From: Anaerolineales bacterium
GTDB taxonomy: Bacteria > Chloroflexota > Anaerolineae > Anaerolineales > Villigracilaceae
Assembly: GCA_030018695.1 (NCBI GenBank)
Contig: JASEHI010000010.1
Location: forward strand, 1-50,672
Length of the DNA stretch: 50,672 bases
Direction: 5' to 3'
The notes under the pieces were generated by a model. That model saw nothing but the letters and a program-made list of their open reading frames with translations, had not been told where the DNA came from and ran no database searches. A program made the position numbers and the translations under genes. This document shows, piece after piece, positions 801 to 30,883 of this stretch; positions within the stretch are counted from its first letter, which is position 1; every line of letters begins with the position of its first letter.

Positions 801-812
801 CTTCTTTGGTTT

Positions 813-886
813 GATAGTCACATAGTCTGATGGTCAAATAGTCAGACTGCTCGACTATCAGACTATCAGACTATCAGACTATAAGA
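813..886 (+). repeat. GACTATCA tandem array with inverted arms
   Basis: The right arm carries near-perfect repeats of GACTATCA (about 854-886). The left arm carries the complementary motif in degenerate form (ATAGTCACATAGTCTGATGG...). The whole can therefore fold into a long imperfect hairpin. It lies between the promoter and the start codon at 889, in the 5' untranslated region, and leaves no recognisable Shine-Dalgarno. Confidence 0.85.
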
Positions 887-888
887 CC

Positions 889-2274
<1,386 letters not shown>

Positions 2275-4200: not shown

Positions 4201-6000
4201 ATGCCCTCCTCCCTCACCAAAGCCCTCATTGATGTTGCCATGGGTCGCGTCCCCGCCGACCTGGTCATCCGCAACGGACAGTGGGTCTGCGTCCAGTCGG
4301 GCGAAATCGTGCCGGATACCGACATTGCCATCAAAGATGGTCACATCGCCTACGTCGGCCCGGATGCCTCGCACACCATTCGTAAAGATACGATTGTCGT
4401 GGACGCGGGCGACAGGTACCTCGTCCCCGGCCTGCTGGATGGGCACATGCACGTCGAATCGGGCATGTTGACCGTCACCGAGTTCGTCCGCGCCGTCATC
4501 CCGCACGGGACGACCGGCATGTTCGTTGACCCGCACGAGATTGCCAATGTCTTCGGGTTGAAAGGCGTCAAGTTGATGGTGGACGAGGCGGCCAAACAGC
4601 CGATCCACGTTTGGGTGCAGATGCCCTCCTGCGTCCCGTCCGCGCCCGGATTTGAGTCATCCGGCGCGGAGATCAGCCCCGCAGAGATCGCTGAGGCGAT
4701 GAGCTGGCCCGGCATCATTGGCCTGGGTGAGATGATGAATTACCCCGGCGTGACGCGCGGCGACGAGAAAATGCTGGCCGAAATGGAGACCACGCGCCGC
4801 GCCGGCAAGGTCATCGGCGGACATTACCCCTCGCCCGACCTGGGACTGCCGTTTCATGGCTACGCAGCGGGCAGCGCGGAAGATGACCATGAAGGCACAA
4901 CACTGGAGGATGCCATCGCCCGCGTGCGTCAGGGGATGAAGGCCATGCTGCGTTATGGCTCGGCCTGGCAGGACGTGGCCGCCCAGGTCGCCGCGCTGAC
5001 AAAGATGGGTCTCGATTCGCGCCGCTTCATCCTCTGCACCGATGACTCGCACGCCGCCACATTGGTACAGGATGGTCACATGGACAGGGTGGTTCGCCAT
5101 GCCATCTCCCAGGGCTTACCGCCAATGACCGCCATTCAAATGGCGACCATCAATACTGCCGAACATTTTGGCTTAAGCCGCGATATCGGCCTGATTGCGC
5201 CCGGCCGCTGGGCGGACATTTTACTGGTGGACGACTTGAACGATTTTCGCGCCGAACTGGTCATTGCGAGAGGCCAGGTGGTGGCAGAGAAGGGCAGGCT
5301 GCGCATCGAGCTGCCCAAAGCGACATTTCCCGGTTGGGTCGTCCAGTCCGTCCACCTGAAGCAGCCGTTGACGGCAGACGATTTCAAAGTGCGCGTAGAC
5401 GGGAGTTCAGCCAAGGCCTCGAAAGTAAACGTCAACGTCATCGGCGTAATCGAGAACCAGGCGCCGACCAGGCATTTGCAGATGATCCGTCCGGTTAATG
5501 AGGCTCAAGTCCACGTGAACACGGCAGTTGATCTGGCAAAAATTGCCCTCGTCGAACGTCATCGCGGCAACGGCGGCCTGCAAGTTGGGCTGGTGCAGGG
5601 ATTTGGCTTCACTCAGCCGTGCGCCGTAGCCTCCACTGTCGCGCATGACAGCCACAATATGATCGTGGTCGGTACAGACGAGGCGGATATGGCCCTGGCG
5701 GTCAACAAGCTGGCCGAGGTTGGCGGCGGACAGGTGGTGGTGAAGCAGGGCCAGGTCATCGGCCTGGTCGAGTTGAACATCGCCGGACTGATGTCCACTG
5801 AGCGTGCAGAAAAGGTGGCTAAGAAAGCGATTTCAATACTGGATGGCTTCCGTGCCTGCGGTTGTAAGCTCAACAATCCCAACATGACCCTGAGCCTGCT
5901 GGCGCTGGTCGTTATTCCAGAGTTGCGCATCTCGGATAAGGGTCTGGTGGACGTGACCCGCTTCGAATTCCTGCCAGTGGTGCAGGGCCCGGCAGCCTAG
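4201..6000 (+). CDS. ade: Adenine deaminase
   Basis: A 599-residue adenine deaminase of the amidohydrolase superfamily, converting adenine to hypoxanthine and ammonia in the cytoplasm. The metal-binding H82-M-H84 sits in LLDGHMHVESG, followed by VDPHEIANVFG, GGHYPSP and CTDDSHA, all typical of bacterial Ade. The C-terminal part with HNMIVVGTDEADMALAVN and LNNPNMTLSLLALVVIPELR matches the usual C-terminal domain. The ATG at 4201 is chosen because GGAG lies 6-7 bases upstream and the family N-terminus (IDVAMGRVPADLVIRNG) begins there; an upstream in-frame start at 4159 is only repeat sequence. It feeds hypoxanthine into the purine degradation cluster. Confidence 0.95.
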   Translation: MPSSLTKALIDVAMGRVPADLVIRNGQWVCVQSGEIVPDTDIAIKDGHIAYVGPDASHTIRKDTIVVDAGDRYLVPGLLDGHMHVESGMLTVTEFVRAVIPHGTTGMFVDPHEIANVFGLKGVKLMVDEAAKQPIHVWVQMPSCVPSAPGFESSGAEISPAEIAEAMSWPGIIGLGEMMNYPGVTRGDEKMLAEMETTRRAGKVIGGHYPSPDLGLPFHGYAAGSAEDDHEGTTLEDAIARVRQGMKAMLRYGSAWQDVAAQVAALTKMGLDSRRFILCTDDSHAATLVQDGHMDRVVRHAISQGLPPMTAIQMATINTAEHFGLSRDIGLIAPGRWADILLVDDLNDFRAELVIARGQVVAEKGRLRIELPKATFPGWVVQSVHLKQPLTADDFKVRVDGSSAKASKVNVNVIGVIENQAPTRHLQMIRPVNEAQVHVNTAVDLAKIALVERHRGNGGLQVGLVQGFGFTQPCAVASTVAHDSHNMIVVGTDEADMALAVNKLAEVGGGQVVVKQGQVIGLVELNIAGLMSTERAEKVAKKAISILDGFRACGCKLNNPNMTLSLLALVVIPELRISDKGLVDVTRFEFLPVVQGPAA

Positions 6001-6013
6001 AAAGTCAGGGTAA

Positions 6014-6733
6014 ATGACACACCATCCTTTTCGCCGCTTGCAGTCTGACTTGGCTGGGTTGATCGCCTCCTTGCCGCCTGAGAGCAAATTGCCGACCGAG
6101 CCTCTACTGGCTCAACGCATGGGAGTCTCACGGGCAACTTTACGGGAGGCCATGCGCTCGTTCGAAGGGCAGGGGTTGATCCGCCGTCGTCAGGGCGTCG
6201 GGACGTTTGTCGTCGGCCAGGTGCCGGTCATCAATAGCGGCCTCGAGGTTCTGGAGAGCATCGAGACGTCAGCCCGGCGCATAGGATTAGCCGTCTCGGT
6301 GAAAGAATTGCAGGTGAAGAGAATTTCCGCGAGCGAAGATCATGCTCAAGCTTTGGGCGTGCCGCTCGGCACGGCCCTGACGAGTGTTTCGCGCGTGATT
6401 TACACCGACACACGTCCGATTGCCTGTCTGGAGGATGTTCTGCCTGAAGACGTTCTTTCCGCCGCTGAATTGGATGACAAATTCACCGGTTCGGTGCTGG
6501 ACCTCTTGCTGCGCCGCGGTTCTCCAAGTCTGGCCCAGTCCCGGACGGATATCAAGGCAGTCGGCGCTTCCTCGGAGGTGGCGCGTGCGCTGCAAATCCA
6601 GCGCGATGACGTCCTTATCCACTTCGTCGCCCTTTTATATTCGACCTCGGGTCGCGTGGTGGATTATTCGATCAGTTATTTCCTGCCCGGTTATTTCCGC
6701 TTCCATGTGGTGCGGCGGGTGGGTAACACGTAA
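6014..6733 (+). CDS. GntR-family regulator with UTRA domain
   Basis: A 239-residue transcriptional regulator. Residues about 8-68 form the winged helix-turn-helix (LPTEPLLAQRMGVSRATLRE, then GLIRRRQGVGTFV). Residues about 85-235 form a UTRA ligand-binding domain of the HutC subfamily (LGTALTSVSRVIYTDTRPIA ... DYSISYFLPGYFRFHVVRR). It lies 13 bases after adenine deaminase and is probably cotranscribed. It is the natural candidate to bind the two TTGTCAGACAA palindromes at 739-799 and to sense a purine breakdown intermediate. Both target and ligand are inferred. Confidence 0.9.
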   Translation: MTHHPFRRLQSDLAGLIASLPPESKLPTEPLLAQRMGVSRATLREAMRSFEGQGLIRRRQGVGTFVVGQVPVINSGLEVLESIETSARRIGLAVSVKELQVKRISASEDHAQALGVPLGTALTSVSRVIYTDTRPIACLEDVLPEDVLSAAELDDKFTGSVLDLLLRRGSPSLAQSRTDIKAVGASSEVARALQIQRDDVLIHFVALLYSTSGRVVDYSISYFLPGYFRFHVVRRVGNT

Positions 6734-6780
6734 AACGTAAAGCGAAAAACGTAATTACGCATCACGTTTTACGTTTTACG
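6729..6780 (+). repeat. CGTAAAACGTAAA / TTTACGTTTTACG inverted array
   Basis: The left arm repeats the CGTAAAA unit and the right arm carries its complement, ending TTTTACGTTTTACG. The element lies between the GntR gene (overlapping its stop) and the next carbamoyltransferase. It could form a hairpin but lacks a terminator-like U tract. Confidence 0.85.
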
Positions 6781-6813
6781 AATCTCGATTCTCTAATCCT
6801 GGAGGTTTTTAAA

Positions 6814-7770
6814 ATGCGTAGTTTTGCTGGTCGGGACATCCTGTCCCTCAAGGAATTTGAACGACAAGAATTTTTCCACGTCTTCGACGTGGCGGCGGAA
6901 CTGGAACCAATTGCAGTAAGCCGTCGTAACGATGATATGCTCGCAGAGAAGACCTTGGTGACGGCCTTCTATCAGCCGTCCACCCGCACGCGTTTGGCGC
7001 ACGAAGCCGCCATGCACCGCCTGGGCGGTCACGTGACCGGTTTCGCGGATGCCAAAATGACGCGCGCGGGAGACTTCTATCAGGAATCCATCAAGGATAC
7101 GGTCAAGATGCTGGAATTCTACGGCGATGTGATCGTCATGCGCCACTTCCAGCAGGGCGCGCCGCACGAGGCGGCCAAGTGGGCTTCTGTGCCGATCATC
7201 AACGGCGGCGACGGCTGGGGCGAGCACCCCACCCAGATCCTGACCGACCTTTATACAGTGCTAAAGGAAAAGGGCACCATTGACGGCCTGACCTGGCTGG
7301 CAGTCGGTGATATGCGCATGCGCACGATGCACTCGCTCGGCTATGCCCTCAGCCAGTTCGACTGCCCAATTACCTTCGTCTCCCCGCCGGATATGTCGCT
7401 GACTGAGGAATTCAAGGCTGAACTCAAGCAATTCAGCGTGGACTTCAAGGAAGCCGAGCACGTCGAGCAGGCGATTGCTGATGCAGATGTCATTTTGGTC
7501 GAGCCGGTTGTCCAACCCGATTACACCAAGTCGCGTGACGAGCGCGCCGGTAAAGACGTGGGTCTTACCCCCGAAAACTACAAGATCACGCGTGAACTGC
7601 TAGAGAAGAAGGCCAAATCGGACGCCATCCTGCTGCACTCGCTGCCGCGCATGGACGAGGTGCCGACCGATGTGGACATCACCCGCTGGTCGCGCTATTG
7701 GCAGGAGGCTTTCAATGGTGTTGTGATGCGCATGGCGCTGCTGGCGCTGGTGTTGGGAGCGATGGAATAA
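6814..7770 (+). CDS. Aspartate/ornithine carbamoyltransferase family enzyme
   Basis: A 318-residue carbamoyltransferase. The carbamoyl-phosphate motif STRTR is at 56-60, GEHPTQ ends at 141, and HSLPRMDEVPTD begins at H275, closest to the HPLPR-DEI motif of aspartate carbamoyltransferases. A good Shine-Dalgarno (GGAGG) precedes the ATG. No pyrimidine biosynthesis genes are nearby. Instead it sits with adenine deaminase, a YgeW-type carbamoyltransferase and carbamate kinase. Its in vivo role may therefore be catabolic, or transfer to a non-aspartate substrate, rather than UMP synthesis. Family assignment is firm; the substrate is open, and PyrB remains possible. Confidence 0.85.
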   Translation: MRSFAGRDILSLKEFERQEFFHVFDVAAELEPIAVSRRNDDMLAEKTLVTAFYQPSTRTRLAHEAAMHRLGGHVTGFADAKMTRAGDFYQESIKDTVKMLEFYGDVIVMRHFQQGAPHEAAKWASVPIINGGDGWGEHPTQILTDLYTVLKEKGTIDGLTWLAVGDMRMRTMHSLGYALSQFDCPITFVSPPDMSLTEEFKAELKQFSVDFKEAEHVEQAIADADVILVEPVVQPDYTKSRDERAGKDVGLTPENYKITRELLEKKAKSDAILLHSLPRMDEVPTDVDITRWSRYWQEAFNGVVMRMALLALVLGAME

Positions 7771-7847
7771 GAGTCTGATAGTCTGGAGTCTGATAGTCTC
7801 ATAGTCTATGAGACTATCAGATTGATGACTATGAGACTATCAGACTA
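7771..7847 (+). repeat. AGTCTGAT / GACTATCA inverted tandem array
   Basis: A left arm of AGTCTGATAGTCT units and a right arm of AGACTATCAGA units form a long imperfect palindrome right after the carbamoyltransferase stop codon and just upstream of the first S23-family gene copy. The unit is the same as in the arrays at 813-886, 8349-8401 and 24135-24165. Confidence 0.9.
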
Positions 7848-7876
7848 GCGGCTACAAAACTTGAAAGGAAGAAGGA

Positions 7877-8374
7877 ATGACGAAGGTCAGGCGGTTCGAG
7901 GATTTGATTTGCTGACAGAAAGCGCGCAAACTGGCGAATATCATCCATAGCCTGACTCGGTATCCCGAATTTTCTCGGGATTTCAGGTTGCGCGACCAAA
8001 TCCTTGATGCGGCTGGATCGGTGATGCACAATATCGCCGAAGGCAGCGATGCGGGCACGGACCCTGAGTTCGTTCGCTTCTTGAAGATGGCGAGACGTTC
8101 TGCCAGTGAAATACAGTCCGAGTTATATCTGGCTCTGGATCGTAAGTACATCACAGAAGCCGAACTGAAACAGGCTTATAATCAGGCCGATGAAGTCAAG
8201 CGATTGATCAATGGCCTGATCGCCTATCTGCGCAAGAACGGGAAAAATGCCGAACGCCGCATCAGCGAGTCCCAAGCCGACTACATCCTCGATAATCACC
8301 ACGACGTCGAACTTCCCGCCGATTTTCTTTCCACTGGCGATGCCACTAACTACTATCAGACTGACGACTATTAG
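7877..8374 (+). pseudogene. S23/IVP four-helix-bundle protein, nonsense-interrupted (copy 1)
   Basis: From the ATG at 7877 the frame reads MTKVRRFEDLIC, then a TGA at 7913-7915, then QKARKLANIIHSLTR and on through RDFRLRDQILDAAGSVMHN, IAEGSDAGTDPEFVRFLKMA and RRSASEIQSELYLALD without interruption. Copy 2 at 9342-9707 has a tryptophan codon (TGG) at exactly this position (EDLESWKKAR), so a single TGG-to-TGA change broke the gene. The C-terminus runs on into repeat-derived residues (NYYQTDDY). The family is the four-helix bundle protein first seen in 23S rRNA intervening sequences. Re-initiation downstream cannot be excluded. Confidence 0.85.
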
Positions 8375-8401
8375 ACTGGCGACTATCAGACTGGCGACTA
8401 C
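8349..8401 (+). repeat. GACTATCAGACTG tandem array
   Basis: Several imperfect copies of CGACTATCAGACTGG overlap the end of S23 copy 1 and run up to the next start codon. Same unit family as 7771-7847, so the S23 copy is bracketed by related arrays. Confidence 0.9.
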
Positions 8402-8403
8402 CT

Positions 8404-8664
8404 ATGCCTGAAATGACGATCAAGGAATGGGCTGCGGCGTGCCGCGCGGATAACGAGGCCGAGCGCGAAATGCTAAAGCAGGAATTACCTCGGATCCCAA
8501 AAGGATCGGGCGCATTGCGGTATTTTCGCTTGTGTGAATTCCTAAGCCGGCTTTCACCGGATGCCGGTCAGGTATTTGCAGATGAACGGCGCAGACATTA
8601 CCTTGATCTGGAAGAGCGAATGAGAAAGGCTGCCAAACGGCTGGGCTATGATTTTCCAAATTAG
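8404..8664 (+). CDS. Small partner protein of a nucleotidyltransferase pair
   Basis: An 86-residue charged, probably helical protein (EWAAACRADNEAEREMLKQE near the start, RMRKAAKRLGYDF at the end). I recognise no family. Its 3' end overlaps the following nucleotidyltransferase gene by 17 bp, like the other small-ORF/nucleotidyltransferase pairs in this window. The start codon directly follows a GACTATCA array, so no ordinary ribosome-binding site is visible. A regulatory or antitoxin role is inferred from arrangement only. Confidence 0.6.
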   Translation: MPEMTIKEWAAACRADNEAEREMLKQELPRIPKGSGALRYFRLCEFLSRLSPDAGQVFADERRRHYLDLEERMRKAAKRLGYDFPN

Positions 8665-9205
8665 CGTGCTCAAAAAAATCATTGCTTTCTTGGATGAGAA
8701 CGATATCTCATTTGCCGTCATCGGCGGGATCGCCAATGCGGAAAGAGGACGCCCGCGGGCTACAGAAGACGCCGACTTAAAAGTGCTGATCAAGGATAAA
8801 ACGATCTCGGAATTCCGCGCTCTTGCGGAATCCCGTTTCGTACCGCATCGCAGACCATGGTTGGGCAAAGCTGAGAGCGCATTGATTGTCTCTGTGGAAG
8901 TGGAACCGGAAATGGTAGTGGATATGTTGGTGGCGGTATTCCCTTACGAAGAATTTGCAATCCAACGCGCTGAAATAATCGAAATTGACGGCGTTCCTTT
9001 ACCGATTTGTACTGCCGAGGATTTGATCATCCACAAGGCGATCTCAAACCGCAGCCAGGATTGGATAGACATTGAAGGTGTTTTGATCCGTCAGCGCGGT
9101 AAACTGGATGTGAAATACATCCGGCATTGGCTTTCTCAATTTGCCGAAGCCCTCGAAAACCCCGAAATTATGACGCGCTTCAACCAACTGTACGAAACCA
9201 TTTAG
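8648..9205 (+). CDS. Nucleotidyltransferase-fold protein
   Basis: A 185-residue protein with the nucleotidyltransferase signature FAVIGGIANAERGRPRATED followed by ADLKV (catalytic D-x-D/E region at about residues 40-46). A later ICTAEDLIIHKAIS segment matches the conserved ...TAEDLIxxKxxa... helix, then a DWIDIEGVL aspartate motif. It overlaps the 86-residue partner ORF. It belongs to the broad group of small toxin-type or regulatory nucleotidyltransferases. It sits between two S23-family genes, so it may have travelled with them, or the arrays may simply prefer this accessory gap. Confidence 0.75.
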   Translation: MIFQISVLKKIIAFLDENDISFAVIGGIANAERGRPRATEDADLKVLIKDKTISEFRALAESRFVPHRRPWLGKAESALIVSVEVEPEMVVDMLVAVFPYEEFAIQRAEIIEIDGVPLPICTAEDLIIHKAISNRSQDWIDIEGVLIRQRGKLDVKYIRHWLSQFAEALENPEIMTRFNQLYETI

Positions 9206-9263
9206 TCTGCTTGTCTGCTTGTCTGCTTGTCTGCTTGTCTGCTTGTCTGCTTGTCTGCTAGTC
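9204..9263 (+). repeat. TCTGCTTG perfect tandem array
   Basis: Six exact copies of TCTGCTTG from 9206, then TCTGCTAG. The stop codon of the nucleotidyltransferase lies at its left edge. The reverse complement of the unit (CAAGCAGA) resembles the ACAAGAAG units at 9710-9746 on the other side of S23 copy 2, so the two arrays form a degenerate inverted pair around it. Confidence 0.95.
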
Positions 9264-9280
9264 CTACCTTTCATGGTTGA

Positions 9281-9349
9281 CCAAGAGACCAGAAGACCAG
9301 AAGACCAGAAGACTAGAAGACCAAAAGGACCATATGACTATATGACTAC
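9281..9349 (+). repeat. AGACCAGA tandem array
   Basis: Repeats of AGACCAGA/AGACTAGA grade into two copies of ATATGACT just before and into the start codon of S23 copy 2 at 9342. The unit changes twice within about 150 bp (TCTGCTTG, AGACCAGA, ATATGACT). Confidence 0.9.
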
Positions 9350-9707
9350 GATAAAAAACTTCGAAGACCTTGAGTCCTGGAAAAAAGCCCGCGAGCTGGC
9401 CGGAATTATCTATGCGTTGACGCGCAAAGAGAAATTCTCGCGTGACTTTGGCTTGCGCGATCAGATTCAACGCGCCGCTGGCTCTGTGATGCACAACATC
9501 GCAGAAGGGTTTGAAGCCGGTTATGACCCTGAGTTTGTCCGTTTTCTCAAAATGGCGCGCCGGTCTGCCGGAGAAGTCCAATCTGAGTTATATCTCGCTT
9601 TGGATGCAGGCTATATTACCTCGGATGAACTTAAGAAAGCATATGACATTGCCGTAGATGCTAAAAAACTCATCAACGGCTTAATCACCTACCTCAGCAA
9701 ACACTAG
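9342..9707 (+). CDS. S23/IVP four-helix-bundle protein (copy 2)
   Basis: A 121-residue intact member of the four-helix-bundle family known from 23S rRNA intervening sequences. It has the typical features FEDLESWKKARELAG, SRDFGLRDQIQRAAGSVMHN, IAEG and FVRFLKMARRSAGEVQSEL. The ATG at 9342 is chosen because homology starts at once; the upstream open frame is only simple repeat. It lies inside the carbamoyltransferase gene run, not in an rRNA gene and without a reverse transcriptase. It is closely similar to the broken copy 1 and distantly to copy 3. Relatives serve as RNA-binding accessory proteins in some diversity-generating retroelements; the standalone role is unknown. Confidence 0.9.
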   Translation: MTTIKNFEDLESWKKARELAGIIYALTRKEKFSRDFGLRDQIQRAAGSVMHNIAEGFEAGYDPEFVRFLKMARRSAGEVQSELYLALDAGYITSDELKKAYDIAVDAKKLINGLITYLSKH

Positions 9708-9709
9708 CC

Positions 9710-9746
9710 GACAAGAAGACAAGAAGACAAGAAGACAAGGAGACTA
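9710..9746 (+). repeat. ACAAGAAG tandem array
   Basis: About four copies of ACAAGAAG directly after S23 copy 2 and ending five bases before the next start codon. It ends ...ACAAGGAG, so the array itself supplies a Shine-Dalgarno-like GGAG for the YgeW-type gene at 9752. Confidence 0.9.
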
Positions 9747-9751
9747 ATCCT

Positions 9752-10732
9752 ATGCAAACTGATTTACGCAACCGAGATTTGATCGGCGACCTGGACTTTA
9801 CGAAAGAAGAAGTCGAAACCGTCCTCGACGTGGCCTTTGATCTCAAGCGCAAGCGCGCCCTGAACGAACCGCATCCCTACCTGCGCGACAAGGTGCTGGC
9901 GATGCTGTTCTTCTTCTCGTCCACGCGGACGCGCGGCTCGTTCGAGGCCGGCATGGCCCAACTTGGCGGTCACGCGGCGTTCATCGAGAGCAAGACCACC
10001 CAGATCGCCCACGGCGACACGCCTAAGGAAATCGGCGAGATCTTCGGGCGTTACTTCGACGGCATCGCCATCCGTCACGTGGACTGGGGCATCGGCAATG
10101 GCTACTTGAACGCCGTCGCCAAAGCCTCGCGCGTCCCGGTGCTGAACATGCAGTGCGACATCTACCACCCCTTCCAGTGCCTGGCCGACCTGATGACCAT
10201 CGTCGAGAAGAAAGGCCGCGACTTGCGCCGCAAGAAGATGGTCGTCTCGTGGGCCTACGCGGCCTCGTACCAGAAGCCGATGTCGGTGCCGCAGTCGCTC
10301 ATCCTGCAAATGCCGCGCTTCGGCATGGATGTTGTCCTGGCGCACCCGCCGGAGTTCAAACTGATGCCCGACATCATGGAACAGGCCAAAGAGCAGGCGC
10401 GCAAATTCGGCGCGGGCTTCGAGGTGGTGGATGACATGGAAGCTGCCTTCAAGGATGCGGATATCATCTACGCCAAATCCTGGGGCGCCATGGTGCACAC
10501 CCCGGACCCGGAAGAGGGCGCCAAGATCATCAAGAAGTATTCCCACTGGATCACCGACGAGAAGAAGATGGCCCTCGCCAAACCGGATGCCATCTACATG
10601 CACCCGCTGCCTGCCGACCGCAGCATCGAAGTGACCGACGGCGTGATGGACGGGTCGCAGTCGGTGGTCTACGATGAGGCCGAGAACCGCATGCACGCGC
10701 AGAAGGCCGTGATGGCGTTGACGATGCGTTAG
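9752..10732 (+). CDS. ygeW: YgeW-type knotted carbamoyltransferase
   Basis: A 326-residue carbamoyltransferase with STRTR at 57-61, HPFQ at 139-142 and HPLPAD from H284. Several segments match what I know of E. coli YgeW and its relatives: QIAHGDTPKEI, NMQCDIYHPFQ, SWAYAASYQKPMSVPQ, FGMDVVLAHPPEF and ADIIYAKSWGAM. YgeW-type enzymes are knotted transcarbamylases encoded in purine/urate degradation clusters together with a carbamate kinase, which is exactly the setting here. The expected step is phosphorolysis of a carbamoylated (ureido) intermediate to carbamoyl phosphate. The precise substrate is not established. The GGAG in the upstream ACAAGAAG array probably serves as its ribosome-binding site. 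Confidence 0.85.
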   Translation: MQTDLRNRDLIGDLDFTKEEVETVLDVAFDLKRKRALNEPHPYLRDKVLAMLFFFSSTRTRGSFEAGMAQLGGHAAFIESKTTQIAHGDTPKEIGEIFGRYFDGIAIRHVDWGIGNGYLNAVAKASRVPVLNMQCDIYHPFQCLADLMTIVEKKGRDLRRKKMVVSWAYAASYQKPMSVPQSLILQMPRFGMDVVLAHPPEFKLMPDIMEQAKEQARKFGAGFEVVDDMEAAFKDADIIYAKSWGAMVHTPDPEEGAKIIKKYSHWITDEKKMALAKPDAIYMHPLPADRSIEVTDGVMDGSQSVVYDEAENRMHAQKAVMALTMR

Positions 10733-10777
10733 TAAATTAGTAAATTAGGGATTAGTAAATTAGGGATTAGTAAAATC
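10728..10777 (+). repeat. TTAGTAAA(TTAGGGA) tandem array
   Basis: Five TTAGTAAA-type units beginning at the ygeW stop codon. The complement (CTAATTTACTAATCTAC) occurs at 11271-11309 on the other side of S23 copy 3, so the two arrays form an inverted pair around that gene. Confidence 0.9.
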
Positions 10778-10790
10778 ATGGAGGCAGACG

Positions 10791-11270
10791 GTGACTGAAA
10801 AAGAGCAACGAGGCTTTGAGGACTTGGATTGCTACAAACTGGCGCTTCAGGTGTTCAAAGAGGCTTACCGCGTCGCCAAGAGTCTGCCTCCCGAAGAAAA
10901 GTACAATCTGGCTCAACAGATGCGTCGTGCTGCGACGAGTATTGTTCTTAATATCGCTGAAGGATATGGCAGGTATCACTACTTGGACAGCCTGCGATTC
11001 TATTACTATGCGCGTGGTTCCTTGAGCGAAACCTTGAGCGCATTTATCCTGTGCGACGAAGCGCACTATGCGCAGGGCGAGTTGCCCGGCCAACGTGACC
11101 TGTGTTACAACGCTTTGAGAACGCTCAACGGCTACATTCGCTATGTTCGTGTTCAGCAACAAGGCAGTCAGGAATACGGCAATCGCGCCATTCACGAGGA
11201 ACATGCTCTATATGACACTTCTTTTACTGAAGGTAGTGAATCTGCTGATATAGTTCCCCCAGTTCCATGA
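10791..11270 (+). CDS. S23/IVP four-helix-bundle protein (copy 3)
   Basis: A 159-residue divergent member of the four-helix-bundle family: GFEDLDCYKLALQVFKEAY, then EEKYNLAQQMRRAATSIVLN and IAEGYGRYHYLDSLRFY. It starts with GTG after GGAGG. The C-terminus is about 30 residues longer than usual and acidic. It is bracketed by inverted TTAGTAAA/ACTAATCT arrays. It separates ygeW from carbamate kinase, which are normally neighbours, suggesting insertion. Confidence 0.85.
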   Translation: MTEKEQRGFEDLDCYKLALQVFKEAYRVAKSLPPEEKYNLAQQMRRAATSIVLNIAEGYGRYHYLDSLRFYYYARGSLSETLSAFILCDEAHYAQGELPGQRDLCYNALRTLNGYIRYVRVQQQGSQEYGNRAIHEEHALYDTSFTEGSESADIVPPVP

Positions 11271-11309
11271 CCCACTAATTTACTAATCTACTGTTCTACT
11301 AATCTACAG
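11271..11309 (+). repeat. ACTAATCTACT array
   Basis: Imperfect ACTAATCTACT/ACTAATTTACT units immediately after S23 copy 3 and ending CTACAGGAG, which supplies the Shine-Dalgarno for arcC at 11319. Inverted partner of the array at 10728-10777. Confidence 0.9.
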
Positions 11310-12553: not shown

Positions 12554-13819
12554 ATGCGTAACATAGTTTTTCGCTTTATCTTGCTGGCTTTGGCTGCCAT
12601 CCTGTTGGTAACAGCCTGCGCCCCAAAGCCCACTGTCACACAACCCCCCGTCGCTCCACCCGCGGCGGGACAACCCCCTGTCGCGCCACCCGCGGCGGAA
12701 GAGGCCAAACTCAAGGCCTGCTACATCTACGTCGGCCCGATTGGCGACATCGGCTGGACCAATGCCCATGATGTTGGCCGCCGCTACGTGGACGATAAGT
12801 ACGAATGGCTGGAAACCGCCTACGCCGAGTCGGTGCCCGAAGCGGACTCTGACCGCTTCATTGACCGTTTCGTCGTGGAAGAAAAATGCAACGTGGTCTT
12901 TACCACTTCCTTCGGCTTCATGGATGCCACGCTGGCCGCAGCCCAGAAGTACCCGGATAACTACTTCTTCCACGTTTCCGGCTACAAGCGCGCCCCCAAC
13001 ATGGGCACCCTGATGGCCGATTTCTATCAACTCTACTATCTGAACGGCTTGATGGCCGGCGCGTTGACCAAGACCGGCAAGATTGGCTACGTGGCTGCAG
13101 TCCCGATACCTGAAGTGGTGCGCCACATCAATGCCTTCACCCTTGGCGTTCGCGCAGCCAATCCGGATGCCACCGTCGAGGTGCGCTGGATCTTCGCCTG
13201 GTACGATCCGGCCAAGGCCCGCGAATCGGCTGAAGCCCTGATCGCCACCGGCGTGGATGTGCTGGCCTTCACCGAAGATACGGCAACCGTGGTCCAGGTG
13301 GGCGAGGAATACACCGCCAAGGGCCAGCCGGTTTACACCTTCGGCCACTACAGCCCGATGGCGCAGTTCGGTCCGAACTCGCTGATCAGCGGCCAGCTGG
13401 TCAACTGGGGTTTGATCTACGAGGACATTCTCACCAAGATTTACCTGGGCATTTACACCACCGAGAATCTCGAGAATGTGGACTACTGGGGCCTGTTGAG
13501 CGGCGGCTGGCAGTTGGGCGCGCCGAGCAGCGTGGAACTGGGCGGCGAATTTGGCGTGCCGTTCAATCCTGCATTCGCGGATGCCCTCAAGGCCGCCAAG
13601 ATCACCGACCCGCTGCTGGGCGAGATCAGCATCTATGACCTGGTCTCCAAGCGCATCGAGCAGATGAAGGACCCGGCCGTGCTGTTCGAGCCATTCAGCG
13701 GCCCGATCAACGACCAGAGCGGCGCCCTGAAGGTGCAGGCTGGACAGCGTCTGTCTTACTTCGAACTAAACACTATTGACTGGTTCGTCGAAGGCGTGAT
13801 TGGCAGCGCCAAGCCTTAA
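12554..13819 (+). CDS. BMP-family nucleoside ABC transporter lipoprotein
   Basis: A 421-residue substrate-binding protein of the basic-membrane-protein (PnrA/YufN) family. The signal peptide ends in lipobox LVTAC with C22 as the lipidation site. Next is a linker in which QPPVAPPAA occurs twice, then the BMP fold (ACYIYVGPIGDIGWTNAHD, FFHVSGYKRAPNMGT, YDPAKARESAEALIATGVDV). Family members bind purine nucleosides or bases outside the cell and deliver them to the adjacent permeases. AGGAGGAG precedes the ATG at 12554. The purine context supports a nucleoside ligand. Confidence 0.92.
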   Translation: MRNIVFRFILLALAAILLVTACAPKPTVTQPPVAPPAAGQPPVAPPAAEEAKLKACYIYVGPIGDIGWTNAHDVGRRYVDDKYEWLETAYAESVPEADSDRFIDRFVVEEKCNVVFTTSFGFMDATLAAAQKYPDNYFFHVSGYKRAPNMGTLMADFYQLYYLNGLMAGALTKTGKIGYVAAVPIPEVVRHINAFTLGVRAANPDATVEVRWIFAWYDPAKARESAEALIATGVDVLAFTEDTATVVQVGEEYTAKGQPVYTFGHYSPMAQFGPNSLISGQLVNWGLIYEDILTKIYLGIYTTENLENVDYWGLLSGGWQLGAPSSVELGGEFGVPFNPAFADALKAAKITDPLLGEISIYDLVSKRIEQMKDPAVLFEPFSGPINDQSGALKVQAGQRLSYFELNTIDWFVEGVIGSAKP

Positions 13820-13839
13820 ACCTGATTCCATGTTCAAAT

Positions 13840-13868
13840 GGGCGGGGGGCACAGTGTGTCCCCCGCCC
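13840..13868 (+). terminator. GC-rich hairpin between binding protein and ATPase
   Basis: GGGCGGGGGGCAC and GTCCCCCGCCC form a very stable stem with a short loop, but only a weak U tract follows. It probably acts as a partial terminator or mRNA stabiliser, giving more binding protein than ATPase and permeases, as is common in ABC importers. Confidence 0.6.
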
Positions 13869-13940
13869 GATTATTGAACTTTTATATCTGCGGCAGCGCA
13901 ATTGCCACCCAACGAAGATCATTGATTATGGAGGCAGGAT

Positions 13941-19463: not shown

Positions 19464-20732
19464 ATGGACAAATTCATTGGCTATCGCTGTTCTCTCTGCA
19501 ACGCGGAATACCTCCCCGGCCAGGTGACCTATACCTGCCCCAAAGACGGAGGCAATCTGGACGTGGTGCTGGATACCAACGCCCTGCGCCAGAAATACCA
19601 GCCGGAAGACATTGCTTCCCGCCGCGACGAATCGCTCTGGCGTTACCTGCCGCTGCTGCCGGTCGCGGACCCGGGTGGCGAGGCGACTCCGCTGCGCGCC
19701 GCGGGCTGGACGCCGGTCTATGCCCTGCCGCGCCTGGCCGAGAAACTTGGCCTGCGCCATCTCTGGCTGAAAGATGAATCCCGCAACCCAACCGCATCCT
19801 TCAAAGACCGCGCCAGCGCAGTGGTTGTGGCGCGGGCGCGCCAGATCAAAGCCGAGGTCGTCGTGACAGCCTCCACCGGCAACGCCGGCGCGGCGCTGGC
19901 CGGCATGGCCGCCGCGATTGGTCAAAAGGCGGTTATCTTCGCACCCAAGACTGCTCCCCCGGCCAAAGTTGCCCAATTGCTGGTTTACGGCGCGCAGGTG
20001 CTGCTCGTGGATGGCACTTACGACGATGCTTTCGATCTATCCATCCAGGCCGCCAATGAATTTGGCTGGTACTGCCGCAACACCGGCTACAATCCCTTCA
20101 CCGCCGAGGGGAAGAAAACGGCTGCGTTCGAGATCTGGGAATGGTGGAGGGGAGAGAGTAGAGAGTCGAGAGTAGAGAATAGTCCGGCTAATCTCTATTC
20201 TCCACTCTCTATTCTCGTTTCTGTGGGCGATGGCAACATCATCTCCGGCATCCATAAGGGTTTCAAAGATTTACTGGCTGTGGGCTGGATCGAGAAAATG
20301 CCGCGCATCATCGGCGTGCAGGCCGAGGGTTCCGCGGCGATAGCCAATGCATTCCAGGCTGGCACGGAAACGATCATTCCCATCTCAGCCAAAACGCTGG
20401 CCGACAGCATTTCGGTGGATTTGCCACGCGATGGCGTGCGCGCCGTGCGCGCCGCTCGTGAAACCGGCGGAACGTACATCACCGTCAGCGATCAAGACAT
20501 CCTGGCCGCCATCGCTGAGTTGGGCAAGGCCGGCATCTTCGCTGAACCAGCCGGGGCCGCCTCTTACGCCGGGTTGGTCAAGGCTGTTGCGCAGGCTGTG
20601 GTCGGGTCAACGGACCCGATCCTGGTGATCAATACCGGCAGTGGGCTGAAGGATGTCCGTGCCGCGATGCAGGCGGTGAAGGAAGCCCCGATCATCGAAC
20701 CGACTTTGGAAGCGGTAAAAAAGGCAATATGA
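19464..20732 (+). CDS. thrC: Threonine synthase with in-frame repeat insertion
   Basis: A 422-residue PLP-dependent threonine synthase, converting O-phosphohomoserine to threonine. It has an N-terminal Cys motif (C9, C12, C25) as in the longer class, the PLP lysine K114 in NPTASFKDRAS, STGNAGAALAGMAAA as the phosphate-binding loop, and NTGSGLKD near the end. At about residues 229-251 a stretch (RGESRESRVENSPANLYS...) encoded by a palindromic GAGAGTAGA array lies exactly where the family runs straight into VSVGDGNIISG. The start at 19464 has GGAG nine bases upstream; a GTG at 19449 is the alternative. Residues after the insertion remain in frame, so the protein is probably functional. Confidence 0.92.
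   Translation: MDKFIGYRCSLCNAEYLPGQVTYTCPKDGGNLDVVLDTNALRQKYQPEDIASRRDESLWRYLPLLPVADPGGEATPLRAAGWTPVYALPRLAEKLGLRHLWLKDESRNPTASFKDRASAVVVARARQIKAEVVVTASTGNAGAALAGMAAAIGQKAVIFAPKTAPPAKVAQLLVYGAQVLLVDGTYDDAFDLSIQAANEFGWYCRNTGYNPFTAEGKKTAAFEIWEWWRGESRESRVENSPANLYSPLSILVSVGDGNIISGIHKGFKDLLAVGWIEKMPRIIGVQAEGSAAIANAFQAGTETIIPISAKTLADSISVDLPRDGVRAVRAARETGGTYITVSDQDILAAIAELGKAGIFAEPAGAASYAGLVKAVAQAVVGSTDPILVINTGSGLKDVRAAMQAVKEAPIIEPTLEAVKKAI
20150..20217 (+). repeat. thrC: GAGAGTAGA / TCTATTCTC palindromic array inside thrC
   Basis: The left arm is built from GAGAGTAGAGAGTCGAGAG-type units, the right arm from CTCTATTCTCCACTCTC. About 65 bp lie in frame in the threonine synthase gene. Nearly the same unit occurs in the intergenic array at 30829-30883. 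Confidence 0.9.
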
Positions 20733-22829: not shown

Positions 22830-25541
22830 ATGTACGAATCCCATCTTTCCCGCCACGCACGTGACCGTTACGGTCTTGAAAGCCTGACATTCCAGAGTCT
22901 TCAGCAGACACGTGGAATAGCTGCGCAGATGAAGGTTTCGGCTGCCGACCTGTATGCACTCGGTCTGATTGATGAAGTCCTGCGCTTACTGCTCCGCCAA
23001 TATGAAATGCAGCATCCGGGCCTGATGGGTCGAGCGCTTGACTTGTTGGATAAGGGCCTCGATCCGCAATCAGTTCGCAAGACGCAGGTTAGATTTATTG
23101 ATGATTTTCCTCCAGCCCTTGTTTATCGCGCTGAAATGACCAGCGACGAGTATCTTGCGTCGGAATCCGGGGGTATCCCACGCCGGCAGACCTCCCTGGA
23201 AGAGCTATTGCTCCTCCACCTGCACAATGCGAACGCGGCGGCCATGTCCTTGAGTGAGTTGTTTGACGACGCCAGCCTGCAAGAGATGACCGTCTATCCA
23301 GCCATCATTGAAAAACTGCACACTTTTTTCAGCCACCAACCCAGCGCCGGCGCGGGTGGGGAGAATTTGATCCAACTCCTGCGCGCCCCGGCGCTGGCCT
23401 CACCGCATTCGTTGAGCGGCCAACTGGAGTACATATTGAATCGTTGGGGCGCGCTGCTGGGCGAGGGCTTCGTCAGCCGCCTGCTGCGCGGGCTGGATTT
23501 CGTCAAAGAAGAGATCCGTCGCAGCGGAACAGGCGGGTTCGCCGGCGATGCGCCGCTGCTGTCTTTTGGGCATGGCGAGCACGAGTACGAACGTTTCAGC
23601 CCGGATAAGGACTGGATGCCGCGCCTGGTGCTGATCGCCAAGAATAGCTGCGTCTGGCTCGACCAGTTGTCGAAAAAATACCAGCGTTGGATCAAAACGC
23701 TCGACCAAATCCCTGATGAAGAACTCGATACTTTGCGCCAGCGCGGCATCACCGGGCTGTGGTTGATCGGCTTGTGGGAGCGCAGCCGCGCTTCGCAACG
23801 CATCAAGCAGATGATGGGCAACGCGGACGCGGTCGCCTCGGCCTATTCGCTGATGGATTACCAGATTGCCGCTGATCTGGGTGGCTGGGAGGCGCTCGGC
23901 AACTTGCGCTGGCGGGCGTGGCAGCGCGGCATCCGCCTCTCGGCCGATATGGTGCCGAATCACATGGGGATTGACTCCGGGTGGGTCGTCGAACACCCCG
24001 ACTGGTTCCTCTCGCTGCCCTACCCGCCCTACCCAAACTATTCCTTCAACGGCCCCGATCTCTTCAGTGTCCCGCGCGCCGGCATCTTCCTCGAAGACCA
24101 CTACTACGACAAAACCGATGCCGCAGTCGTCTTTCGACTATCAGACTATCAGACTCATCAGACTCGCTATATCTACCACGGTAATGATGGCACCTCCATG
24201 CCCTGGAACGACACGGCGCAATTGGATTATTCCAAAGCCGAAGTGCGCGAGGCCGTCATCCAGGCCATTTTACAAGTGGCGCGCAACTTTCCGATCATCC
24301 GCTTCGACGCGGCGATGACCCTGGCCAGGAAGCACATCCAGCGCTTGTGGTTCCCCGAGCCGGGCGCGGGGGGCGCGATTCCGTCACGGGCTGAGCACGG
24401 CATGACCCGGTCCGAGTTCGAGGCGGCGATCCCCAATGAGTTCTGGCGCGAGGTTGTGGACCGCGTCGCGGCCGAGGTCCCGGATACGCTGCTGCTGGCC
24501 GAGGCCTTCTGGATGATGGAAGGCTACTTCGTGCGTACACTGGGCATGCACCGCGTCTACAACTCGGCCTTCATGCACATGCTGCGGGATGAGGACAACG
24601 CCAAGTACCGCCAGGTGATGAAGAACACGCTCGAGTTCGACCCGCAAGTGCTCAAGCGCTACGTCAACTTCATGAACAACCCCGACGAAAAAACTGCCAG
24701 CGAGCAGTTTGGCACAACGGACAAGTACTTCGGCGTCTGCACGTTGCTGGTCACCCTGCCCGGCCTGCCGATGTTCGGCCACGGACAAATCGAGGGCTTT
24801 CGCGAAAAATACGGCATGGAGTACCGCCGCGCCTACTGGGACGAAAGCGTGGACGAGGGACTGGTGCGCGGCCACGAGGGGCGCATCTTCCCTCTGACCC
24901 ACCGCCGTCACATTTTCGCCGAGGTGGAGAAATTCCTGCTCTACGATTTCTTCACCCCAGATGGAAATGTGAACGAGGATGTGTTTGCGTATTCGAACGG
25001 ATTCGTCAGCGGATATGAAGCGGATAAACCCCCAGACTACGGGGGCAAGCGGATAGAGCGCGGATTGGTAATTTACCACAACAAATATGCCCATACTTCC
25101 GGCTGGGTAAAGACTTCCGCGGCTTTCATGGATAAAAACTCCGGGAAACTCATCCAAAAAACGCTCGGCGAGGGCCTTGGCCTGCCCGCCGGACTATCCG
25201 ACTATGTGACATTCCGTGACTATGGCACGAATTTGGAATACATCCGCTCGTGTAATGAATTGGTGGAAAAAGGGTTGTACGTGGAATTGGGTGGCTATCA
25301 ATGCCATGTTTTCATGGATTGGCGGTTTGTCTCCGGCGACCAGTGGGCGCAAGTTTGTACGGTGCTAAGCGGCGCGGGCGCGCCATCGTTGCAGGCGAAG
25401 TTCGATGAGTTGTTCGCGCCGAGGGTGGAAGTGAAAGAAGTTGCCGGGAAACAAGTAAAACGGAAACGAGTAAAAAGTAAACAAGTAAGTAAGGAGACAA
25501 GTAAAAAGGTAATCAGTGGGAAGAAAAAAAACCGGAGGTGA
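22830..25541 (+). CDS. GH13-like alpha-amylase family protein with N-terminal extension
   Basis: A 903-residue protein. Residues 1-about 290 form a helical domain I do not recognise (HARDRYGLESLTFQSLQQTR...). From about 300 follows a (beta/alpha)8 alpha-amylase fold: GITGLWLIGLWERS, DMVPNHMG (region I, about 373), IIRFDAAMTLA (region II, aspartate about 493), LLLAEAFWMMEG (region III, glutamate about 557) and FMNNPDEKT (region IV, about 616, not the canonical NHD). The catalytic Asp and Glu are therefore present. About residues 436-446 (SDYQTHQT) come from an in-frame GACTATCA array. The C-terminus is a lysine-rich low-complexity tail from another array. No signal peptide is visible, suggesting a cytoplasmic glucan enzyme. 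Confidence 0.8.
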   Translation: MYESHLSRHARDRYGLESLTFQSLQQTRGIAAQMKVSAADLYALGLIDEVLRLLLRQYEMQHPGLMGRALDLLDKGLDPQSVRKTQVRFIDDFPPALVYRAEMTSDEYLASESGGIPRRQTSLEELLLLHLHNANAAAMSLSELFDDASLQEMTVYPAIIEKLHTFFSHQPSAGAGGENLIQLLRAPALASPHSLSGQLEYILNRWGALLGEGFVSRLLRGLDFVKEEIRRSGTGGFAGDAPLLSFGHGEHEYERFSPDKDWMPRLVLIAKNSCVWLDQLSKKYQRWIKTLDQIPDEELDTLRQRGITGLWLIGLWERSRASQRIKQMMGNADAVASAYSLMDYQIAADLGGWEALGNLRWRAWQRGIRLSADMVPNHMGIDSGWVVEHPDWFLSLPYPPYPNYSFNGPDLFSVPRAGIFLEDHYYDKTDAAVVFRLSDYQTHQTRYIYHGNDGTSMPWNDTAQLDYSKAEVREAVIQAILQVARNFPIIRFDAAMTLARKHIQRLWFPEPGAGGAIPSRAEHGMTRSEFEAAIPNEFWREVVDRVAAEVPDTLLLAEAFWMMEGYFVRTLGMHRVYNSAFMHMLRDEDNAKYRQVMKNTLEFDPQVLKRYVNFMNNPDEKTASEQFGTTDKYFGVCTLLVTLPGLPMFGHGQIEGFREKYGMEYRRAYWDESVDEGLVRGHEGRIFPLTHRRHIFAEVEKFLLYDFFTPDGNVNEDVFAYSNGFVSGYEADKPPDYGGKRIERGLVIYHNKYAHTSGWVKTSAAFMDKNSGKLIQKTLGEGLGLPAGLSDYVTFRDYGTNLEYIRSCNELVEKGLYVELGGYQCHVFMDWRFVSGDQWAQVCTVLSGAGAPSLQAKFDELFAPRVEVKEVAGKQVKRKRVKSKQVSKETSKKVISGKKKNRR
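24135..24165 (+). repeat. GACTATCA array inside the GH13 gene
   Basis: CGACTATCAGACTATCAGACTC... in frame within the catalytic barrel region of the GH13-like gene. The same unit forms the arrays at 813-886 and 7771-8401, more than 15 kb away. Confidence 0.9.
25430..25520 (+). repeat. ACAAGTAAA-type purine-rich array at a gene end
   Basis: Direct, imperfect units (GAAACAAGTAAAACG, AAACGAGTAAAAAG, TAAACAAGTAAG) encode the lysine-rich C-terminus (KQVKRKRVKSKQVSKETSKK) of the GH13-like protein. Confidence 0.8.
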
Positions 25542-30828: not shown

Positions 30829-30883
30829 GGAGAACAGAGAGTAGAGAGCAGTACTGTTCTCTAATCTCCGCTCTCTACTCTTT
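30829..30883 (-). repeat. GAGAGTAGA palindromic array between archease and rtcB
   Basis: GAGAACAGAGAGTAGAGAG and CTCTAATCTCCGCTCTCTAC form a long imperfect palindrome. Unit closely similar to the in-frame array inside thrC (20150-20217). Confidence 0.9.

Follow-up and report, generated by a model that had tools for sequence, protein, structure and literature searches.

Why should three genes for one four-helix-bundle protein, all within a single operon-like run, each lie between short tandem arrays? The question is raised by a 50,672-nucleotide stretch of an Anaerolineales bacterium (GenBank assembly GCA_030018695.1, contig JASEHI010000010.1), which was analysed at its full length as the window and is contig C11 of a 2.86-Mb draft genome (G000). 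Three genes of the 23S_rRNA_IVP/four-helix-bundle family (S23, PF05635) were identified in the window using Pfam and NCBIfam, and Tandem Repeats Finder (TRF) detected arrays of 7–8-bp units on both sides of all three, as the first-pass annotation of this DNA had noted. The units of the two flanks, which were described there as related or complementary, are indeed related, and that description understates the relation: within a locus, each flank is an inverted copy of the other, namely AGTCTGATAGTC versus GACTATCAGACT in element 1, the GTCTGCTT array versus the GACAAGAA array over 41 bp (score 28.5) in element 2, and AGTAAATTAGTAAATTAG versus CTAATTTACTAATCTACT in element 3. Each of the three S23 genes in the window thus occupies a stem loop. 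The comparisons described below suggest that an S23 gene and its two inverted short-tandem arrays probably constitute one mobile element of the intervening sequence (IVS) type, living in the intergenic gaps of operons.

The association was analysed in eight genomes (G000, G001, G002, G003, G005, G007, G009 and G011), from which 65 of 84 S23 matches were taken with 4 kb of sequence to either side, or less near contig ends, together with 20 control stretches. The upstream flank was scored against the reverse complement of the downstream flank within 150 bp, with a stem score of 12 as the cut-off; one counted locus, L047, reaches a contig end and has an unreliable downstream flank. The genes used for comparison are greedy calls of open reading frames (ORFs) that include spurious ones, in the control set as well, and one such call replaced arcC in the window. 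Array frequency within 150 bp, which the first-pass annotation had proposed to compare between S23 and other genes, is enriched at S23: arrays were present on both sides of 0.385 of the 65 S23 genes and 0.013 of 534 other called genes, and of 13/30 and 3/126 genes, respectively, after matching for gap. Complementary flanks (score ≥12) were found at 46 of the 65 S23 genes versus 0.011 of the 534 others, while 0.021 of 388 mismatched S23 flank pairs reached this score. When both gaps were restricted to 30–250 bp in both groups, the counts were 23/30 and 1/126. The 916-kb scan, in which 60 of the 81 stretches had been picked for holding S23, contained 62 inverted repeats with 250–1500-bp loops; S23 is enclosed by 42 of these, nine others lie within 1.5 kb of S23 without enclosing it, and the remaining 11 lie elsewhere. 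These results confirm that the association of S23 with inverted arrays is real and larger than first noted.

The arms have a fixed strand polarity. The left arm is G-rich (G>C in 40 versus 4 cases in the eight genomes and 37 versus 6 in the named set described below) and has about one GT per 7–8-nt unit, a motif core that was derived from the same arms that had passed the stem score. S23 is codirectional with both neighbours in 50/61 cases, which is possibly an underestimate because the ORF caller misread at least one neighbour (arcC in the window). The own register of the arms beat a one-unit shift in 65/66 comparisons, and this is not counted as evidence, since the best register had been chosen beforehand.

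A second set comprises named loci, i.e. the best 80 of at least 563 confirmed S23 loci, which favours one S23 subgroup and in which L220 and L224, both counted, look like near-duplicates. According to phylum labels assigned from the record names, these loci belong to Chloroflexota, cyanobacteria, Bacteroidota, Planctomycetes, Desulfobacterota, Patescibacteria and others. Complementary flanks were found at 46/80 loci (18/30 in Chloroflexota and 28/50 in the others); the control for this set consisted of mismatched flanks only, and 6.3% of 636 such pairs reached the stem score. An exceptional arrangement was seen at the S23 locus of Salinivenus iranica (L214), where very strong arrays flank the gene on both sides (65 and 60.5) and are not paired as inverted copies.

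Empty sites, which the first-pass annotation had suggested looking for in relatives, were found at two orthologous positions, pheS|pheT and ygeW|arcC. The pheS|pheT panel, drawn from 120 source genomes of which 11 lack a pheS match, contains 102 loci, and 99 of these were resolved, whereas L126, L291 and L296 run into contig ends. Of the 99 loci, 29 have an empty gap (2–25 bp), 24 hold S23, 13 contain a different stem and the remaining 33 have some other longer gap; 13 of the 24 S23 genes reach a stem score of 12. Most of the 13 other stems are different repeats, many of a 9-mer type; those of L146 and L149 contain a AGAGAATT unit that is, by eye, close to the unit of the AGAG-class S23 elements. 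A palindromic 9-mer family without S23 (ACCGCGAAG...GCTAAG and its complement) was also observed in the pheS–pheT gap of L131, L136, L140–L142 and L144. At ygeW|arcC, 30 loci comprise 6 with S23, 17 with gaps of ≤17 bp, 5 with other gaps of 65–103 bp, and 2 (L165 and L183) with a gene-less palindromic array. The L165 array consists, by eye, of the GTAxACAG unit that brackets S23 at ygeW|arcC in other genera, which suggests S23 loss or a pre-insertion state. In a congener, the gap corresponding to element 2 has neither S23 nor an array. The empty sites are short gaps at the stop codon or ribosome-binding site.

At pheS|pheT the arm class of an element goes with its S23 subclade, at moderate support, rather than with the genus of its host. 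The clade supports are 86/99 for the TTAGG class and 86/84 for the AGAG class, the latter including L089 from another site, while the TTCG rows form no resolved clade. By a rough motif count, the two sides belong to the same class in 19/24 loci; they are discordant in L281 and in L124, the copy of the genome studied here, whose two sides belong to different array classes, and one side is unclassed in L308, L314 and L317. A single genus, g9, has TTCG and TTAGG elements, one AGAG element (L317, by eye) and empty sites at this position. Rewriting of the arms in situ at a fixed locus had first been suggested by same-site comparisons, in which own-locus pairing exceeded cross pairing in 44/62, and was dropped when the larger pheS|pheT panel revealed that the arm class tracks the S23 subclade; replacement by a different element is therefore simpler than rewriting.

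S23 lineage and array unit also go together at unrelated sites. The left arm of one locus was compared with the right arm of another, a procedure blind to homology of the neighbouring genes, and in a strict neighbour test any six-frame stretch within about 2–2.5 kb at E 1e-3 was counted as shared. Among pairs without shared neighbours, arms matched in 8/14 (≥70% S23 identity), 7/33 (60–70%) and 53/1872 (<60%) pairs of the eight genomes and in 9/11, 42/201 and 208/2679 pairs, respectively, of the named set. When shared neighbours were also added by transitivity, 7/12 and 9/10 pairs, respectively, matched at ≥70%. An earlier, looser test, which missed diverged neighbours and left some high-identity named loci that stand in related operons, gave 12/19 (≥70%), 10/40 (60–70%) and 63/1987 (<60% or no BLAST match) for different sites in the eight genomes, and 11/16 (≥70%) and 130/2110 (<55%) for named pairs with no shared neighbour. 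Same-site pairs of the eight genomes matched in 15/18 (≥70%), 3/9 (60–70%) and 0/7 (<60%) cases. The S23 of element 1, for example, is 72% identical to that of L102, which belongs to another genus and another site, and their arms match (14). Matching also crosses phyla: L240 (Planctomycetaceae) matches L231 and L236 (Desulfobacterota) and L255 (Calditrichaeota), and L227 (Zixibacteria), whose S23 is followed downstream by GroEL (recognised by eye), matches L223, L231, L236 and L225. Homogenisation of units within a genome was considered and rejected, as mismatched S23 arm pairs reached a score of at least 12 in 2.2% of 682 same-genome and 3.2% of 3478 other-genome comparisons. The joint distribution of S23 lineage and array unit is as expected for a mobile unit that carries its own ends, and the tracking of S23 lineage by the arms argues against flanks generated afresh at each site, an option that the first-pass annotation had left open. 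Its proposal of a small and possibly mobile cassette is supported by the empty orthologous sites, by the linkage of lineage and unit at unrelated sites, and by the existence of gene-less versions of the same unit (see below).

Several points weigh against a mobile element. The stem score is not reached by 19/65 S23 genes in the eight genomes (2 of these 19 are true Avd genes), by 34/80 named loci, or by 11/24 S23 genes at pheS|pheT, including the copy of this genome (7.5). Target-site duplications were not established, and the element has no catalytic gene. The matching pairs are non-independent and form about five separate clusters in the eight genomes and four in the named set. Among pairs without shared neighbours, S23 identity reaches at most 82% and 80%, respectively; no near-identical copies were seen at two sites, and therefore no recent jump was caught. 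The matching of S23 and array is a correlation, and S23 may have been spread partly by the exchange of whole operons.

Vertical inheritance combined with horizontal transfer at the operon level, with no mobility of the element itself, would explain why same-site S23s often cluster in the tree and why 54/70 named pairs at ≥70% identity share a neighbour in the looser test. It appears quite improbable, given that 8/14 and 9/11 of the high-identity pairs without shared neighbours still match in their arms and that three arm classes (one by eye) occur along with empty sites within one genus at pheS|pheT. Local slippage, in which repeated octamers would accumulate in gaps through slipped replication and the copying of quasi-palindromes, with S23 merely tolerating them, fits the existence of gene-less palindromes and of arrays on at least one side of 0.125 of the 534 other genes (23/126 when gap-matched). 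It is strongly disfavoured, and we give it hardly any credence, because complementary flanks are found in only one of the 126 gap-matched other genes and because the unit tracks the S23 lineage over sites and phyla. It is also conceivable that a Y1/RAYT (REP-associated tyrosine) transposase or a reverse transcriptase encoded elsewhere in the genome moves the hairpins in trans, with S23 as a passenger. Y1_Tnp was found in 40/41 relatives, and Y1 transposases are thus too common among them to discriminate; S23 copy number shows a weak rank correlation, uncorrected for completeness or kinship, with Y1 (0.37, p 0.016) and with reverse transcriptase (0.33, p 0.034). A reverse transcriptase was rejected as an obligatory partner on account of G007, which has the most S23 matches of any genome (22) and no RVT_1 match. 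For a pure passenger, neither a link to a single array unit nor the presence of S23 in 42 of the 62 stems would be expected, which makes this explanation improbable.

The remaining rival places the element at the RNA level only: the arms would form an mRNA stem that is cut by RNase III to free the S23 message, and selection for pairing would keep the arms matched. It has a precedent in the IVSs of ribosomal RNA (rRNA) with an S23 ORF, whose ends are inverted repeats and which RNase III cleaves (PMC4990558), and both the codirectional orientation of S23 and the polarity of the left arm are consistent with it. The stem mismatches, however, show no excess of G.U over A.C (52 versus 52 in the eight genomes, 32 versus 58 in the named set, and 72 versus 80 with gaps allowed), so that selection for an RNA stem is unsupported, and the polarity could have other causes. 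On balance we regard a purely RNA-level element as rather unlikely.

No family other than S23 was found between the arms of elements 1–3, and so they encode no DNA-cutting transposase. From this lack of a catalytic gene and from the unsupported RNA pairing, we infer that recognition of the arrays by S23, with cutting in trans, is to be favoured. The mobile element would then be an S23 ORF in a stem loop, placed in the gaps of protein operons instead of rRNA. By analogy with a transposase that matches its end repeats, the S23 protein may recognise the arrays (or palindromic DNA) of its own lineage and may bring the ends of the element together or bind its stem-loop, and cutting and joining would be supplied in trans by a separate enzyme or by recombination between same-unit arrays. 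In the loci viewed by eye, the insertions lie beside stop codons with S23 in the direction of transcription, an arrangement that would spare the host operons. S23 is a working protein and is under purifying selection (pN 0.09–0.18 versus pS 0.65–0.83 in 10 related pairs, whose synonymous sites are saturated or nearly so). The solved structure 2gsc is a relative (E 6.5e-13), and a member of its family has been reported to form a homopentamer of four-helix bundles (PMC4990558). At L011 (G000:C37; also L051), an S23 gene is followed by a palindromic stretch and then, by eye, by a cas1-like gene, with a stem score of 7, below the cut-off; 18 23S_rRNA_IVP genes have been noted in cas loci (PMC3936711).

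Gene-less arrays were listed by the first-pass annotation at 813, 6729, 20150 and 30829. All four have a stem, and the one at 20150 is located in a coding gene and not in an intergenic region; three of them (813, 20150 and 30829) have a unit in common with an S23 flank of this genome and agree with the view that such arrays are scars or empty sites, whereas the array at 6729 has no such match. The best flank match of the 807–889 array is in another genome (23 versus 18.5 in its own), and in a random control of 80-mers taken from 12500–50500, arrays included, 19/400 reached 14. The 20154–20216 palindrome shares its unit with the left flank of the S23 at pheS–pheT in this genome (L046; match 21). 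A census at threshold 15, which left out the 20154 palindrome (inside an ORF) and the 30830 array (stem score 12) and is thus an undercount, found 11 gene-less arrayed intergenic hairpins in 916 kb. Five of the 11 score ≥18 against an S23 flank from the same genome, and matches of ≥12 were obtained in 32/552 same-genome versus 36/2308 other-genome comparisons; the 11 hairpins have no strand polarity (5 versus 3 of 9 in codirectional gaps). In the variable loop of the PALP gene, compared at 14 loci, palindromic arrays were seen by eye in three: the window locus, that of G001 (L336), a congener, and that of G029 (L344), which is more distant. The 7–8-mer arrays in this loop are in frame, with AGAG-type units in two genomes and a GGAATAC unit in the third. 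PheT of the genome studied here (L046, frame 4484–7270) likewise has a stretch of in-frame repeats, KDESGKIKDEGGGMKDEGG, resembling a translated array. The one-sided array in the amylase-like ORF (24136) is not shown to be an insertion, because a segment of about the same length is present in relatives.

Table 1. Arrays, stem arms and genes of the three S23 elements and other arrays in the window.
Feature	Position	Strand	Description	Basis
TRF arrays	7771-7847, 8352-8400, 9205-9263, 9279-9332, 9710-9744, 10729-10774, 11274-11307			TRF
Left array, element 1	7771..7847	+	AGTCTGAT unit; partly palindromic itself, forward units then reverse	TRF, sequence
Left arm, element 1 stem	7772..7798	+	Best ungapped complement, score 17	
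S23 copy 1 (PF05635)	7877..8374	+	In-frame TGA at 7913-7915	Pfam, sequence
Right arm, element 1 stem	8366..8392	-	Overlaps S23 end; within array 8352-8400	
Small ORF between elements 1 and 2	8404..8664	+	No Pfam match	
Nucleotidyltransferase-like gene (DUF2204) between elements 1 and 2	8648..9205	+		
Left arm, element 2 stem	9203..9243	+	Score 28.5; inside GTCTGCTT array 9205-9263	
Inner reverse array, element 2	9279..9332	-	AGACCAGA	TRF
S23 copy 2, intact	9342..9707	+	ATG 9342 read from sequence; E 6.3e-32 on 9345-9707	Pfam
Right arm, element 2 stem	9706..9746	-	GACAAGAA array 9710-9744	
Left arm, element 3 stem	10731..10748	+	TTAGTAAA array 10729-10774; begins within ygeW stop codon; score 15.5	
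S23 copy 3, intact	10791..11270	+		Pfam, NCBIfam
Right arm, element 3 stem	11275..11292	-	ACTAATCT array 11274-11307	
Gene-less palindromic array	807..889	.	Unit common to element 1; stem 19.5; copy 1 flank match 18.5	
Gene-less palindromic array	6723..6779	.	Stem 15; unit matches none of the S23 flanks taken from this genome (best match 10)	
Gene-less AGAGAGTAG palindrome	20154..20216	.	In frame in PALP (threonine-synthase-like) gene; stem 19	
One-sided GACTATCA array in amylase-like ORF	24136..24164	.	Element 1 unit; no stem (score 5)	
Gene-less AGAG-class palindromic array	30830..30882	.	Stem 12; match to L046 18	

Each S23 gene of the window occupies a gap of the operon-like run, as described in the first-pass annotation, although the first gap additionally holds the DUF2204 gene and the small ORF (Table 1). 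In the relatives L157, L158 and L160, the DUF2204 gene follows the first carbamoyltransferase gene and precedes ygeW, and no S23 was detected on that strand. The reported absence of reverse transcriptase and rRNA genes nearby holds as well: none of the five RVT_1 matches of this genome is on contig C11, and no Rfam family reached its gathering score anywhere in the window. A 39-bp tandem repeat (5.5 copies, 42276–42491) was also observed in the window, within a long ORF.

Among known systems, the closest comparison is with the rRNA IVSs with an S23p ORF of Leptospira, Coxiella and others, which are sporadic and thought to have spread horizontally (PMC4990558). In both, an S23 ORF lies in the loop of a terminal-inverted-repeat stem and is transcribed in the sense direction, and in Coxiella tandem heptamers (GACAGAT) directly precede the S23p ORF (PMC4990558). 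The elements described here differ in lying in gaps between protein genes, with up to 22 S23 matches per genome, in having arrays with lineage-specific units as both arms, and in the purifying selection on S23, whereas the Coxiella ORF was called expendable (PMC4990558). The neighbours of the window S23 genes are protein genes, and since the place inside an rRNA gene that defines an IVS is thus lacking, the elements are a variant and not IVSs. Insertions in rRNA genes of the candidate phyla radiation (CPR) also contain 23S_rRNA_IVP ORFs (PMC11270868). Avd of diversity-generating retroelements belongs to a related four-helix-bundle family, but the three window copies match TIGR02436 and not NF033474 (Avd), and no reverse transcriptase is on their contig. 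Two Avd genes (NF033474) are present elsewhere in this genome, L053 (G000:C192, ~52823–54011) and L054 (G000:C151, ~13309–14465), about 0.2–0.3 kb from reverse transcriptase matches and with stem scores of 8.5 and 9, below the cut-off; these are probably two diversity-generating retroelements.

Repetitive extragenic palindromes (REPs) and bacterial interspersed mosaic elements (BIMEs) are short palindromes of intergenic regions that are linked to a protein lineage of their own, the RAYTs. The present elements resemble them in this respect and differ in that S23 is not a Y1 transposase, that S23 lies inside the stem, and that the ends are tandem arrays. The single Y1_Tnp match in this genome is on contig C117, so no Y1 is linked to the window palindromes. 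Rickettsia palindromic elements are palindromes found in frame inside protein genes, as is the 20154–20216 palindrome, which differs in having tandem 7–8-mer units common to S23 elements. TAACTGA arrays are intergenic 7-mer direct repeats with a patchy distribution over phyla, and they differ in consisting of one fixed heptamer in direct orientation; the terms ‘four helix’ and ‘23S rRNA’ were not found in the available text of that paper (PMC4679880). No report of S23 genes between inverted arrays outside rRNA was found in the literature searched, which mostly excluded subscription journals and was accessible in part.

More than 25 years after the S23/IVS elements were discovered, their function and origin were still described as unclear (PMC4990558). 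It is possible, and we put this forward only tentatively, that the mobile elements proposed here represent a new minimal class, widespread in bacteria, in which the non-enzymatic S23 protein, the only one encoded, reads a lineage-specific 7–8-bp array with about one GT per left-arm unit and this code directs the place and manner of movement; the rRNA IVSs would then be a special case and the gene-less arrays, including those inside coding genes, non-autonomous offspring. The link between S23 lineage and array unit gives S23 a testable job and supplies many natural pairs of protein and target, and it would account for one kind of simple array and palindrome seen in the genomes of bacteria.

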